Origin: Lacrimispora xylanolytica
GTDB lineage: Bacteria; Bacillota; Clostridia; Lachnospirales; Lachnospiraceae
DNA length: 64,000 bases
Reading direction: 5' to 3'
Assembly: GCF_026723765.1 (NCBI RefSeq)
Contig: NZ_CP113524.1
Location: 3,271,001-3,335,000, forward strand
Position 1 is the stretch's first letter. Each line of letters starts with the position of its first letter. Below are positions 45,399 through 53,353 of the stretch, piece by piece. The notes beneath the pieces are model-generated. The model saw only the letters and a list, made by a program, of their open reading frames with translations, made no database searches and was not told the DNA's origin. Both the position numbers and the translations under genes were made by a program.

Positions 45399-46349
45399 TT
45401 ATTCAAGTGCTTCCTTTAAAGCAGCAAGGTTTTTTTCCATAACAGAAAAATAATCCTCTCCTGCCTTTAATTCTTTGTCGCTAAGCCCCTCTACCGGGCT
45501 AAGTACCTCTGTCTTCGCCCCGGTCTCTTTGGCAATGGCTTCCGCCACCTTAGGACTTACCAGCTCCTCAAAAAAGATTGTCTTAACCTGATTATCCCGG
45601 ACATAGTCAATAACCTCAGCCATTCTGGCCGGATCCGGCTCTGAATCCGGTGTCAGTCCTTCAATTCCCACCTGGGTAAGACCATAGGCAGAACATAAAT
45701 ACCCGTAAGCTTCATGGGAAACCACGATGGATTTGTTGGAAAGAGGTGACAAGGTCTCCTGAAAGGATTGATCCAGCTGATCAAATTTCTCTGCATATGT
45801 CTTATAGTTGGCTTCGTAATAATCCTTGTTCTCCGGATCCGCTTTTACGAGTCCATCTTTGATGTTTTCCATTTCCTTTTTCGCATTTTTCGGATCAAGC
45901 CATACGTGGGGATCGAATTCTCCATGATCATGTTCATTCTCCTCTTCTTTATGGTCCCCTTCTTCCTCGTGGCCTTCCTTTAATGTAATCCCACTAGAAG
46001 CCTCCACGACAATAAGGCTTTTATTACTAAGACTTTTTAAAACATCTTCCGTCCAATGCTCCATACCAGCACCACTATAAATAAATACATTGGATTCTTC
46101 CAGACTCGCTATATCACGGGTACCCGGTTCCCACTCATGTGGCTCTGTGCCTGCAGGAACCATGTTTTTTACATTTACTTTATCCCCGCCTACTTTTAAG
46201 GTAAAATCATAAACCGGGTAAAAGCTTGTCATTACGCTTATTTTATCTCCCGCAGCTTCCTTTTTTGCAGCACATCCAGTAAGTATCACACTAAAAGAAA
46301 GGGCGGCTACAGCCATGAAGCGATTGATCCTTGATCTATATTTTTTCAT
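45399..46349 (-). CDS. znuA: Zinc-binding lipoprotein ZnuA
   Basis: The 316-residue cluster A-I binding protein starts at MKKYRSRINRFMAVAALSFS (GGAGG upstream) and has lipobox VILTGC. It has the metal-site histidines (GTEPHEWEP, PHVWLDP, VVSHEAYGYL) and a His/Glu-rich loop (GHEEEGDHKEEENEHDHGE) typical of zinc-specific family members. The His-rich loop argues for zinc over manganese. Confidence 0.92.
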   Translation of the reverse strand: MKKYRSRINRFMAVAALSFSVILTGCAAKKEAAGDKISVMTSFYPVYDFTLKVGGDKVNVKNMVPAGTEPHEWEPGTRDIASLEESNVFIYSGAGMEHWTEDVLKSLSNKSLIVVEASSGITLKEGHEEEGDHKEEENEHDHGEFDPHVWLDPKNAKKEMENIKDGLVKADPENKDYYEANYKTYAEKFDQLDQSFQETLSPLSNKSIVVSHEAYGYLCSAYGLTQVGIEGLTPDSEPDPARMAEVIDYVRDNQVKTIFFEELVSPKVAEAIAKETGAKTEVLSPVEGLSDKELKAGEDYFSVMEKNLAALKEALE

Positions 46350-46410
46350 TATTTCCTCCGTTTTTATCATACATTTAGAACCGCTTTATTCTCCTAGACA
46401 AGAGATAACA

Positions 46411-46722
46411 TCAACGATTCAAACGGACCTTTAATCCAACCAGTGAAAGCCTGGGGCTTAATATTCCAGACTCATATGCTTTCAGCTGATTCTTTACAAA
46501 GATTATTGCAAACGTGAGAATGACTCCGCTCCCCAATGCCTGTGAAAGCAAGTGGAGGGTACGGATACACGTTTTTATCTCCAAACATACGATACAGCCC
46601 TCGCCCGGGCAGTCATGACGAAAACGGGTTAGAACGAAAAAGGATGAGTATAGAAGAGTCAGCGTTACGAAAATGGCAAGAAGCATAGAAACATTATGCC
46701 TGTGGTTCCTGAAAAATTTCAT
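46411..46722 (-). CDS. Small membrane protein of the zinc operon
   Basis: I do not recognise this 103-residue protein. It has two hydrophobic segments (residues ~13-31 and ~62-78). The loop between them contains HDCPGEGCIVCLEIKTC, four cysteines and a histidine that could bind zinc. The position between zur and znuA suggests a role in zinc uptake or sensing. The basic C-terminus probably lies in the cytoplasm. Confidence 0.65.
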   Translation of the reverse strand: MKFFRNHRHNVSMLLAIFVTLTLLYSSFFVLTRFRHDCPGEGCIVCLEIKTCIRTLHLLSQALGSGVILTFAIIFVKNQLKAYESGILSPRLSLVGLKVRLNR

Positions 46723-46750
46723 AGCCCATCTCCTTTCCTATCCATTTCCA

Positions 46751-47155
46751 TTACTGACACTGGCTGCAATAACCATATAACACCATATGGTGCTGATCCA
46801 GCTGAAAGCCATGATCTTCGTGGATATGCTCATAAAATGCGTCCAGTCTGGAGCATTCCAGTGGAATGATTCCTCCGCATTTTAAGCATACCAGCTTACC
46901 TACGTTGCCATATATTTCGTCACCGATGTACCGAAATTGTGCTTTGGAACCGTCTACCGATGGAATCTTAACTACAACTCCATCTTCCGTAAGACGTTCC
47001 AATGCCCGATATACCGTTGTTTGTCCCACATGGATCCCGTCACGGTGAAGATATTCCATGAATTGTTCCACCGTACAGAACAACTCCTTTTGCTTTTTTA
47101 AACAGTTGAGAATAATCTCCTGCTGTTTTGTCCGGTATCTTCCTCTCTCTGCCAT
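46751..47155 (-). CDS. zur: Fur family regulator, probable zinc uptake regulator Zur
   Basis: The 134-residue protein has the Fur winged helix (HVGQTTVYRALERLTEDGVV) and two CxxC pairs (VCLKCGG and YCSQCQ) that form the structural zinc site. Sensory His residues are in ECSRLDAFYEHIHEDHGFQ. It heads the cluster containing ZnuABC and two G3E GTPases, so Zur is the best subfamily guess, though PerR or Fur function cannot be excluded by sequence. It probably represses the whole operon when zinc is sufficient. Confidence 0.85.
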   Translation of the reverse strand: MAERGRYRTKQQEIILNCLKKQKELFCTVEQFMEYLHRDGIHVGQTTVYRALERLTEDGVVVKIPSVDGSKAQFRYIGDEIYGNVGKLVCLKCGGIIPLECSRLDAFYEHIHEDHGFQLDQHHMVLYGYCSQCQ

Positions 47156-49832: not shown

Positions 49833-50117
49833 AGCCAATTTCTTTTTACAAAAACCTAATATTTATTTATAAAATTACTATGGTAATATTTCTAAAAATG
49901 ATTATAATGATGGTAATACTCATTAATGACGTCCAAACAAAAATACATTACAAATCATCCTACCTGGAATGATAAAGGAGACACTATTTTAATTCTATTA
50001 TGTTAAGTCATATTCCTATTTTTCAATGTGTTTATTTTTCATCTACACAATCTTCCCAATATTAAATCTATTTCATTCTATACAGTCAAAAACGGTACTT
50101 TTATCCACTAAAAAAGG
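49833..50117. other. Non-coding gap before the invertible segment
   Basis: No convincing gene lies here. A 26-codon open frame starting at 49926 has no ribosome binding site. In the present orientation the leftward promoter of the invertible segment fires into this stretch. Confidence 0.4.
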
Positions 50118-50134
50118 CGCAGTTTAACTAAAAC
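50118..50134 (+). repeat. Left inverted repeat of the recombinase segment
   Basis: CGCAGTTTAACTAAAAC is repeated perfectly in inverse orientation at 51522-51538. It is itself a quasi-dyad (GTTT...AAAC), as expected for a tyrosine-recombinase core site. Similarity ends sharply outside the 17 bp. Confidence 0.85.
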
Positions 50135-50170
50135 CACGCCGCAACTTTCAGACAAATTTCGACATCTTTC

Positions 50171-50200
50171 ATTATATAATATCGGTTTATTGTTTGTCAA
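50171..50200 (-). promoter_or_regulatory. Outward-facing promoter inside the invertible segment
   Basis: On the minus strand TTGACA (50200-50195) and TATAAT (50176-50171) are 18 bp apart. Transcription would start near 50164 and cross the left inverted repeat ~30 bases later. No gene on the minus strand lies just downstream, which makes sense only if the promoter works in the other orientation. Confidence 0.7.
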
Positions 50201-50280
50201 TCCTAACAAAAATAGTATTGATGATAGAATTCAAACACTTAAAAATGAAAGATGCAAAGCATTTTTGGCGAAATTCACAA

Positions 50281-50304
50281 CATTCGCCGTCAAAAATTAC
50301 GTCA
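50281..50304 (+). repeat. Direct repeat, left copy, before the recombinase gene
   Basis: Twenty-one of 24 bases (CATTCGCCGTC...CGTCA) match a stretch at 51449-51472 in the 3' end of the recombinase gene, in the same orientation. It may be an arm-type binding site or a remnant of another recombinase 3' end. Confidence 0.6.
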
Positions 50305-50322
50305 AAAAGGAGAATTATAGCA

Positions 50323-51483
50323 ATGCCGCGCAGAGGTGAAAATATATATAAGCGAAAAGACGGGCGCTGGGAAGGCCGACAGCAAAAGGCTACTGGCAAA
50401 TACCAGTACTTTTACGGAAAAAGTTATCGAGAAGTGAAAGAAAAAATGAGATTATTTATAGAAAATAACAAATTATCAGACAATGCAACAGGAAGTTCTA
50501 TTCCTGATGCGGTAGAGCTTTTAAAAAACTGGTTGGAATGCGAAGCGGTCAATCGAGTAAAGCCCTCTACCTATGAAAGTTATTATAATTGTTTAAACAA
50601 ATATATTATTCCATTTTATTTAGAAAATGACTGCGAAGAAATTACAGAAGAATCTGTAACGTTATTCGTAAAAGAAATGAAGGAAGAAGCCTCCATCTCC
50701 GATGCTTATAAGAAAAAGATTCTTGCTGTCTTTAAAACAGCATTAAAAGAAATACTTACAAACCACAAAGACTCTTCCAGTATTCTTCAGGCAGTGAAAC
50801 TACCTAAAACAGAACAAAAAGAGGTAGAGATCTTTACAATGAAAGAACAAAGAAGTATAGAATGGGCAGCCATTAATTTTGAAGATAAACGTGCACTCGG
50901 AATCATACTCTGCATATACACCGGCATTCGTCTTGGTGAACTTTGTGCCTTAAAGTGGAGTGATTTCGACTTAGAAGCTGCGACGATGTCCATAAAGCGT
51001 ACCGTGACTCGTACAAAAAACTTTAAAAAGCAGGAAAACAAAACGTTGCTGAATGTTGGTACTCCAAAGAGCCGGACTTCCATAAGAAAAATACCCCTTC
51101 CAGCATTCCTTGTAACCATTGCAAAGGATTTTATCTTAGCTGGAGACAAGGAAGATTATTATATATTATCAGGCAGCAATCTTCCCATTGATCCCAGGGC
51201 ATACCAGAAGTTATATAAAAGGGTTCTTAAAAAGGCCGGTGTCAAGGACCGGAAATTTCATTCAACCCGACATACCTTTGCTACCAGGGCTCTGGAACTT
51301 CACGTGGATATCAAGACTGTTAGCGAAATATTAGGCCATTCTAATGTAGCAATTACCATGAACGTCTATGCGCATTCCCTTATGGAACAGAAAAAAATAG
51401 CCATCGATAAGTTTAATGATATGCACCTTACCAGCATGAAGCAACATTCATTCGCCGTCGAAACTTCCGTCATCACTGCATAA
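50323..51483 (+). CDS. Tyrosine recombinase/integrase (phage integrase family)
   Basis: The 386-residue protein starts at MPRRGENIYKRKDGRWEGRQ, where AAAAAGGAG lies upstream; the open frame extends further left without a ribosome binding site. It has an AP2-like N-terminal arm-binding region, a SAM-like core-binding domain (~65-165) and a catalytic domain with all key residues: Arg in YTGIRLGELCALKW, HxxR in FHSTRHTFATRAL, His in LGHSNVAIT and the nucleophile Tyr in NVYAHS. It resembles Tn916-type and inverton-linked integrases. The gene is enclosed by perfect inverted repeats and no excisionase or other mobile genes are present, which favours a DNA-inversion role over an integrated element. 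Confidence 0.92.
   Translation: MPRRGENIYKRKDGRWEGRQQKATGKYQYFYGKSYREVKEKMRLFIENNKLSDNATGSSIPDAVELLKNWLECEAVNRVKPSTYESYYNCLNKYIIPFYLENDCEEITEESVTLFVKEMKEEASISDAYKKKILAVFKTALKEILTNHKDSSSILQAVKLPKTEQKEVEIFTMKEQRSIEWAAINFEDKRALGIILCIYTGIRLGELCALKWSDFDLEAATMSIKRTVTRTKNFKKQENKTLLNVGTPKSRTSIRKIPLPAFLVTIAKDFILAGDKEDYYILSGSNLPIDPRAYQKLYKRVLKKAGVKDRKFHSTRHTFATRALELHVDIKTVSEILGHSNVAITMNVYAHSLMEQKKIAIDKFNDMHLTSMKQHSFAVETSVITA
51449..51472 (+). repeat. Direct repeat, right copy, in the recombinase 3' end
   Basis: It matches 50281-50304 at 21 of 24 positions and lies within the last 12 codons of the recombinase gene. Confidence 0.6.
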
Positions 51484-51521
51484 TACTATGTAAAATCAAG
51501 GTTTTTTGCCATAGTGCCACA

Positions 51522-51538
51522 GTTTTAGTTAAACTGCG
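51522..51538 (-). repeat. Right inverted repeat of the recombinase segment
   Basis: GTTTTAGTTAAACTGCG is the exact reverse complement of 50118-50134. It lies 91 bases upstream of the chemotaxis receptor start. Confidence 0.85.
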
Positions 51539-51628
51539 AATCCCATATGCACGCAATCTGATTTTTCTTGAAGAACAAATTGAAGCAATCGTACATAAGA
51601 AAAAGACCAATAACAGGAGGTTCAAAGC

Positions 51629-53353
51629 ATGAAAAATTTCAGGGATTACAGTATTACAAAAAAACTACTCACCGCTTTCCTTAGTGTAGTGCTGATGATG
51701 CTAGTCGTCGGAGGCGTGGGTATCTTTGGCATGATCCGCATCAATCAAATGGATACCTATTTATATGAGGAGCAGACAGCACCCATCAGCGAACTATTTG
51801 CATCAACCAAAAACCTTTACACTCTTCGTACAGATATTAATGCGATTGTTGTTCATTCAGGAAGCCAATCTGAGCTTACAAAACTGGAGCAGGAATATCA
51901 GAATTCAAAAAAGGCATTTCTTGACAACGCAGCAGTATACCGGAAAAGCATAAAATCTGATTCAACTTTGGCATTGCTTGATGAAGCGACCCAATTGTTT
52001 GAGCAGTCATACGATCCGATGATTCAGGCGTGTCTGGAGGCTGCAAAATCCGGAGATAGTATCTCTGCCTTATCTGCACTGAACCGTGATAGTGAAGCCA
52101 TTCAGAAAATTTACGACAACATGGATCAGCTTATCACCCTTCGTATGGATGCTGCGAAGCAGACAAGCCAAGGCAACGACAGCACCGCTGTGGTTCTAAC
52201 GGTAATCCTGTGCATCATTGTGGCTTTGGGAACTATTGCTGCTCTCTATTTAAGCTTTAGAATCTCTAAGATGATCAGTGATCCTATCGGTCAGGTAGTA
52301 CTTGCTGCAAAGAAAATCGCTCTTGGTCATGTGGATGTGGATTTAAAAGACATAGATTCCAAGGATGAAACCGGTCAGCTCGCCGATGCATTTACCCAGA
52401 TGCTGAATGGAATCAGGGAGCAGGTGATGATTGCAGAAGAAATCAGCAATGGTGACTTCACTCAGGAAGTTCCCCTCCGTTCCGACGAAGATGTTCTTGG
52501 ACTTGCTCTTCGAAAGATAGAAAATGACCTTAACCGCACTCTTTTACTTATTAATATTTCAGCCGACCAGGTAAATACCGGTGCGGAGCAGGTATCCTCT
52601 GCTGCCCAGGCCTTGGCTTCTGGTTCCACCGAGCAGGCGGCTACCGTAGAAGAGCTGAATGCTTCTATTACTACCATTGCTAAGCAGGCAGAGCACAACG
52701 CAGACAACGTCCGCCTGGCTTCCACCTATGTGGAACAAAGCAGCAGCGGAGTCCTTGCAAGCAATGAATTTATGGAGAACTTAAACGAATCCATGAATAA
52801 AATTGGTACCGCCTCCGCAGAGATCTCCAATATTACAAAGGTAATTGAAGATATCGCTTTCCAGACAAACATTCTAGCCTTAAATGCAGCCATAGAAGCA
52901 GCACGTGCCGGGGATGCCGGTAAAGGCTTTGCAGTTGTTGCTGACGAAGTACGAAACCTTGCCATTAAATCTGCAGAAGCAGCCAAAGAAACTGGTATCC
53001 TTATCACTCATTCCGTAGAAGCCGTTTCCGAAGGGGAACAGATGGCGACTGAAACCTCCAGAATCTTAAAAGAAGTACAGGAAAAATCCAAGCTGGTGGA
53101 GCAGGCAATACAGGAAATTGAATCAGCCTCAAGCAACCAGGTGGCAGCCATTGAAGAGATCAATCAGGGCCTGTCACAGGTATCTGCAGTCATTCAGACA
53201 AACGCAGCAACCGCAGAAGAAAGCTCTGCCTCCAGTGAAGAGCTGGCTGCACAGGCACAGACGTTACAGCAGGAAGTCGGAAAGTTCAAGCTCAATAAAA
53301 ACACTTCCTTACAATCCAGTTTATCCCCTGCTTTTGGTTTAGGAAAATACTAA
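51629..53353 (+). CDS. Methyl-accepting chemotaxis protein
   Basis: The 574-residue receptor has a cytoplasmic N-terminus, TM1 (~13-33), a four-helix-bundle extracellular sensor (~34-185), TM2 (~190-212), a HAMP domain (~213-265), a second HAMP-like stretch (~270-310) and the signalling helices (~320-560). The hairpin tip is [20 protein letters not shown], then [22 protein letters not shown] precedes the ATG by seven bases. Only a weak promoter candidate lies between the right inverted repeat and the gene, so expression may depend on orientation of the upstream segment. The ligand is unknown and no other chemotaxis genes are nearby. Confidence 0.92.

Follow-up and report, generated by a model that had tools for sequence, protein, structure and literature searches.

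A self-encoded, promoter-bearing DNA segment of Lacrimispora xylanolytica that probably forms an inversion switch for a chemoreceptor gene

Inversions detected from sequencing reads have been reported to adjoin the gene of a methyl-accepting chemotaxis protein (MCP) in Anaerotignum propionicum and to lie near chemotaxis genes in Clostridium thermocellum, and the section dealing with Clostridia names signalling and chemotaxis as the commonest functions near inversions in this class (PMC5903667). The same source lists the Hin switch of Salmonella and a fimbrial segment of Providencia stuartii as cases with a recombinase gene located within the segment that inverts. Published precedents thus exist both for inversions linked to chemotaxis in Clostridia and for recombinases encoded within invertible segments. 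Here we analyzed a window of 64,000 nucleotides from L. xylanolytica (contig NZ_CP113524.1, positions 3,271,001 to 3,335,000), in which the segment 50118-51538 is most probably a self-encoded, promoter-bearing inverton (an invertible element) controlling the chemoreceptor gene that begins at 51629. For the clostridial chemotaxis cases, the section that treats them gives no segment, promoter, recombinase or sites (PMC5903667), unlike the present cassette, for which all four can be named.

Like the Hin and P. stuartii segments as outlined in that source, the present cassette carries its recombinase within the invertible DNA. Hin is a serine recombinase; our cassette differs from it in having a tyrosine recombinase, an integrase-like architecture, a receptor as target and a crossover site that possibly serves as terminator in the OFF state. 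A Clostridia inverton group from a gut community, group 139, comprises 33 invertons, 32 of them from Clostridia, and is linked to tyrosine-type recombinases (PMC11892184); the word chemotaxis is absent from the main text of that paper, whereas the present cassette adjoins a chemoreceptor gene. The flagellar switch of Clostridium difficile is a recombinase-driven inversion upstream of a motility operon, and termination appears to be involved, since the title of the paper names Rho (PMC7446863). Judged by that title, termination there involves Rho, whereas the hairpin of the present cassette looks intrinsic and the recombinase is encoded inside. RecV acts from elsewhere in the C. difficile genome. 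Integrases of the Tn916/Tn1549 type belong to the tyrosine recombinase family, as does the present recombinase, and their attachment sites have a layout of arms and cores that the cassette resembles; the cassette, however, is a mere 1.4 kb as a whole, has one gene and carries its cores inverted. A description of such a cassette was not found in the open-licence papers searched, which is not proof that none exists. Compared with the original prediction, which had been made from the DNA letters alone, the analysis adds matching variable cores, arm-type direct repeats and a terminator-like left site.

The segment is bounded by a left crossover repeat (CGCAGTTTAACTAAAAC, 50118-50134, plus strand) and its inverted copy on the right (51522-51538, minus strand). 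A repeat search and a mismatch scan recovered both at exactly the coordinates originally predicted, 17 nt long and 100% identical, with 1387 bp between them and a cassette of ~1.4 kb. When up to three mismatches are allowed, the 17-mer has two sites in the window against 0.10 expected from shuffles, and in the window's own genome, a single contig of 4.5 Mb, this pair comprises the only exact copies. Ten sites with three mismatches were counted genome-wide, a frequency not above that of a reversed-pattern control; one of them is the left core of a paralogous cassette, B (see below). Target sites in trans for the recombinase in its own genome were considered and rejected, the 17-mer at up to three mismatches staying at control level except for that single B core.

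An outward promoter, TTGACA-18-TATAAT, matching the consensus at 12 of 12 positions, lies within the segment next to the left repeat (50171-50200, minus strand; predicted start site ~50164) and points away from the receptor gene. A 12/12 promoter arose four times in 2000 shuffles of the segment. Between 49000 and 53000, promoter-like sites with at least 9/12 matches number eight against 9.4 expected, and because there is no excess the weaker ones carry no meaning. Both hexamers are invariant across 13 aligned orthologues of the window type. The promoter had been described as aimed at no gene, and all that it does meet is a convergent gene, at the 3' end (49761). The predicted target, on the right, is an MCP gene (51629-53353, plus strand; open reading frame (ORF) and domain search) with 4HB sensor, HAMP and signalling domain, in a genome with 21 matches to the MCP signalling domain. 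Mirror arithmetic agrees with the outcome foreseen for a flip, which would put the start site at ~51492 and leave a leader of ~137 nt. The window locus has the inverted repeats around an outward promoter adjoining a gene by which promoter invertons are recognized.

Between the repeats lies, as predicted, a complete tyrosine recombinase gene, with an intact frame from an ATG at 50323 to 51483 (plus strand, 386 aa; ORF, Pfam and homologue alignment). The protein matches Pfam Phage_integrase at 9.5e-27, and R203, H313, R316, H339 and Y349 are invariant in an alignment of eight recombinases, giving the R..HxxR..H..Y catalytic domain of tyrosine recombinases, in which these residues have catalytic roles. 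This assignment to tyrosine recombinases sets it apart from the serine recombinase fold of Hin-type invertases. The solved Int protein 6emy, which we take to be the Tn1549 integrase, matches at 2.1e-13, the N-terminal domain has no Pfam match even at E 10, and relatives among viral contigs and phages reach only 22-40% identity. Among 12 loci in named genomes, the closest recombinases are those of Clostridium sp. 12(A) (100%) and [Clostridium] aerotolerans DSM 5434 (93%). The program-called ORF begins with a TTG at 50194; the ATG at 50323 follows AAGGAG, aligns with the start of the relatives and is the likely start. A candidate weak promoter for this gene (CTAACA-16-TAGAAT with TG, 50203-50230, plus strand) has a sequence score at chance level. 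The original prediction also held that flipping moves the 5' context of the recombinase gene; this needs a correction, because the 190 bp upstream of the gene lie within the repeats and move along, leaving the near 5' context unchanged.

Relatives of the recombinase at 1e-80 were collected from 25 genomes of the genus, and all 46 matches were read with their flanks. Every genome contains at least one close recombinase, and the loci fall into types A (the window type, 14 genomes), B (3), C (3), E (1) and D (24). A second strain of the window's species (L068, L097, L107, L082) was counted as a separate genome, and L098 and L099, the two contig ends of one B locus, were counted once, so that 22 repeat-bearing entries represent 21 loci. 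These 21 self-encoding cassettes, 14 of them orthologues of the window locus, are joined by four in another family of the order. The right-hand neighbour is an MCP gene in 23 of these 25 self-encoding loci (21/21 within Lacrimispora). All 14 A loci retain the repeat pair, with a perfect match of 17-18 nt in 11 loci and of 14 nt in the other three; a repeat score of 14 is not decisive on its own, as the D locus L083 reaches it with an unrelated T-rich pair, and motif and place decide. The window's own genome holds three close paralogues of the A recombinase, B (56%), C (56%) and D (61%). Inverted repeats on both sides, a promoter directed outward and an MCP gene as right-hand neighbour are all present in A, in B and in C; none of these was found for D. 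In B the outer repeat arms are imperfect around an identical centre and the 376-aa frame is intact, an apparent stop (one TGA) having been traced to an alignment overrun past the true stop. The C locus L107 has a truncated recombinase frame. In a tree that left out L068, L097, L107, L082 and L098 and included seven of 28 distant loci (see below), D falls inside the repeat-bearing clade as sister to C (support 97/93 for D, 100/96 for C+D), which makes a loss of repeats the most likely history of D; the deeper nodes are less certain (82/60, 87/81).

Across the loci the core consists of dyad arms that are fairly stable and, unlike them, a central 5 bp occurring in 11 versions (AACTA, AACCA, ATTCA, ATCCA, ACTTG, ATCCT, ACCTA, AATCA, ATTGT, ACTTA and ATTTC). 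Within each locus the centre is nevertheless identical between both cores, in 27/27 loci including two recombinase-free ones, a count that carries some selection, since loci were partly recognized by their repeats; the two recombinase-free loci, however, were met via synteny and arm motif. Tyrosine recombinases require identity across the overlap region, and the matching centres therefore have the look expected of a working site pair.

Inside both ends of the segment a repeat search found direct repeats, one at 50281-50304 (CATTCGCCGTCAAAAATTACGTCA, plus strand) and one at 51449-51472 (CATTCGCCGTCGAAACTTCCGTCA, plus strand) within the 3' end of the recombinase gene. Their sequence and placement suggest arm-type sites that the N-terminal domain of the recombinase would bind. 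The upstream copy (CGCCGTCA) is present in 22/22 repeat-bearing entries and in 0/24 D loci; the D locus L081 has a CCGTC element at its 3' end. From the left core to arm 1 the distance is 166-167 bp in A and B, 176-177 bp in C and 208 bp in E, and from arm 2 to the right core 74-77 bp in all 21 genus loci (73-77 bp over all 27). The recombinase stop codon of these 21 loci lies between 65 bp downstream and 4 bp upstream of arm 2, and 128 bp upstream in the truncated L107. The pattern YCGCCGTCA-N8-GTCA has exactly three sites in the window's own genome, at the A, B and C cassettes, and 37 across the 25 genus genomes, 30 at cassettes and seven elsewhere, against 12 for a control pattern. Among 16 distant relatives, a GCCGTCA- or CCGTCA-like direct-repeat pair is seen in ~7, few of them above chance in a shuffle test of mixed outcome; the same ungapped test missed the arm pair in L021 and L106.

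Together with its outer flank, the left crossover site can fold into a terminator-like hairpin of 10 pairs with a T run (50106-50140, minus strand), which faces the outward promoter in the present orientation, predicted to be OFF for the receptor. At the window locus the junction energy is -14.0 kcal/mol for OFF versus -8.2 kcal/mol for the modelled ON junction. The OFF junction is the more stable in 18/18 loci of a first folding set (18 of the 21 genus loci; L069, L097 and L107 were left out) and in five of six further loci. At least five T of eight follow the hairpin in both C rows and in E; B has instead a separate strong terminator just outside the left site. Folding and sequence thus suggest that the promoter often faces a terminator-like structure, formed by the left crossover site itself or by a hairpin of its own next to that site, and insulation of the promoter appears common but not uniform, with L072 as the weakest case.

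From these features we infer inversion, binding, termination, a change of expression and OFF as the majority state in cultures. The recombinase would bind the two core repeats and, presumably, the two inner direct repeats, and strands would be exchanged across the central ~5 bp, where the two sites have to be identical. As the segment now lies, transcription from the strong outward promoter would run leftward and stop at the left-site hairpin with its T-rich outer flank, leaving the receptor gene with no more than weak read-through from the recombinase gene (OFF or low). After inversion the promoter would stand ~137 nt upstream of the receptor gene (ON), and the hairpin would lose the outer arm with which it pairs, as well as the T run.

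An indirect sign of flipping comes from the draft genome of L. aerotolerans DSM 5434. At its A locus, contig 22 ends with the left flank and the full 17-mer and contig 16 begins with the same 17-mer, the break of contig 16 falling at the outer base and that of contig 22 at the inner base of the left repeat. Within the right repeat of B, contig 12 breaks off exactly where the sequence common to both B repeats ends, and its last 1730 bp are identical to the other end of contig 16. Our own arithmetic (~100 contig ends, 8 boundary positions, 4.7 Mb) puts the chance of one break at a repeat boundary at ~2e-4 and of two at ~1e-8. A repeat of 13-17 nt would be too short to break an assembly unless the reads hold both joins, and these breaks are what a population of mixed orientation would cause. 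A second right-hand repeat in G003 (L070) was traced to duplicated contig ends around N; it may reflect a mixture, and was not counted as its ends lie off the repeat boundary.

Two genomes without an A recombinase (G005 and G012) keep both cores at the A-type place, perfect over 18 and 21 nt, with the promoter and both arm repeats in cassettes of 397 and 350 bp overall, upstream of an MCP gene whose product is 66-68% identical to the window's. One of these cassettes is located at ~1334-1730 of L239; the other, read on the reverse complement of L195, has the methyltransferase gene on one side and the MCP gene on the other. Each of the two genomes has one close recombinase, of type D, and either D acts in trans or the losses are recent. 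The D recombinase occurs in 24 of 25 genus genomes (L020, L081-L096, L100-L104, L108, L109), followed in nine of 24 by a consensus promoter and then another MCP gene. It is also retained in genomes where the arm motif was not detected (e.g. G014, G019 and G022), and must therefore have an additional use. Of 24 D loci scanned, 23 have no 15-nt inverted pair in the near surroundings of the recombinase; three hits (L020, L101, L104) are in other places. A self-palindromic repeat, AAAAAGGTGTACCTTT, occurs twice, ~130 bp apart, upstream of the recombinase in L020 (~7.0 kb) and L104 (~3.6 kb).

Outside the genus, an even sample of 397 family genomes was surveyed at 1e-62, and 80 of them, the window's own species included, contain recombinase relatives. 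Inverted repeats scoring at least 17 surround the recombinase in 16 of the 28 distant loci examined (33-40% identity), and the right-hand genes of these repeat-bearing loci varied. The self-encoded layout is common across the family (L149-L175); by eye, the right-hand position resembles an rRNA methyltransferase in L149 and a sugar-nucleotide epimerase in L175. At the level of the order, four genomes from one genus of another family encode recombinases of 50-58% identity in the full layout, with the MCP gene on the right in two of them.

Several observations weigh against a switch that flips. In 27/27 loci (21 from the genus, four from the other family and the two recombinase-free ones) the promoter is directed away from the right-hand gene. 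Flipped junctions were not observed: none of the three 17-mer copies in the L. aerotolerans draft lies at one, and the contigs are still OFF. Around the recombinase of 22 of the 25 self-encoding loci, over a stretch reaching 600 bp upstream and 500 bp downstream, there is neither a contig end nor an N. At least five T of eight stand behind the hairpin in only 6/13 A rows, several of the others having the T's paired into the stem, and L224 has an ON junction more stable than its OFF junction. In the remaining two of the four genomes from the other family, the right-hand gene encodes an HD-domain protein and the MCP gene is on the left, facing the segment. The original prediction was to be dropped if a single orientation coincided with repeats varying across relatives; the single orientation was found, whereas the repeats vary only together, both of a locus at once. 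As all 27 loci are OFF, free 50:50 switching is inconsistent with the data, and there is either a strong preference for OFF in culture or a low rate of flipping. One orientation throughout would suit a frozen inverton, in which sites and gene are kept while the segment no longer flips, or flips too rarely for a role, and in which the receptor, if expressed, depends on read-through from the recombinase gene; no terminator-like site was found on the plus strand between the two genes in the window, which agrees with this. We consider such a frozen state rather unlikely, given that core centres match in 27/27 loci despite 11 versions, that contigs of one draft break at repeat boundaries at two loci, and that the two recombinase-free loci keep perfect repeats of 18 and 21 nt. 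The lack of a terminator-like site in the window and the same direction of recombinase and receptor gene would equally allow that the segment flips but that the present orientation is the expressed one, with the receptor in an operon with the recombinase, or, as the HD-domain protein genes of the other family might indicate, that the switch mainly serves another gene. This is slightly less probable still: the strong promoter faces a hairpin that is stabler than the modelled flipped junction in 23/24 loci, the recombinase promoter candidate is weak, and 23 of the 25 self-encoding cassettes have an MCP gene as their right-hand neighbour.

A single gene between short terminal repeats, encoding a relative of the integrases of mobile elements and phages, could also be a small mobile element whose termini are the repeats, with no inversion system involved. 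Related cassettes, B and C, do exist at other places of the window's genome. However, A loci share their flanks: the MCP and ABC-F genes recur on the right side in 12/12 loci, and the methyltransferase and nucleotidyl/aminotransferase genes recur on the left side in all 10 loci with sufficient flank. Whatever its type, each cassette has the same orientation and is followed at a short distance by a receptor gene (21/21 Lacrimispora loci), the inner direct repeats keep a near-fixed spacing and the promoter is conserved, which together make a mobile element very improbable. The matching cores, the conserved promoter hexamers, the recurrent chemoreceptor neighbours and the contig breaks instead argue for the self-encoded inverton that was originally proposed to switch the chemoreceptor.

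Two further observations concern the surroundings. Left of the locus, at 45399-47155 of the window, a gene for a zinc-uptake-like lipoprotein and one for a Fur-family-like regulator were recognized by eye, and are present in some relatives too. In the complete genome G025 (L074/L034) the MCP gene of the A locus is split over frames, through either a sequencing error or real loss.

Taken together, the loci would fit a family of chemoreceptor switches based on integrase-type arm and core recombination, each cassette with its own recombinase and with a crossover site doubling as the OFF terminator. Inversion would be strongly biased toward OFF, with a small minority of cells running the extra receptor, and in some lineages stripped switches of 350-400 bp would be worked in trans by the repeat-less D, the only other close homologue there. 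In this full form we regard the picture as tentative, with more doubt than confidence. The small size of the cassette and its natural deletion variants would allow recombinase, arm repeats, core and terminator to be tested one by one for the part that each plays. Chemotaxis is usually seen as tuned by signal and adaptation, with the same receptors in all cells of a clone. If the present interpretation is true, a conserved, self-contained DNA switch acting on single receptors would give individual cells of the same clone different sensory abilities.

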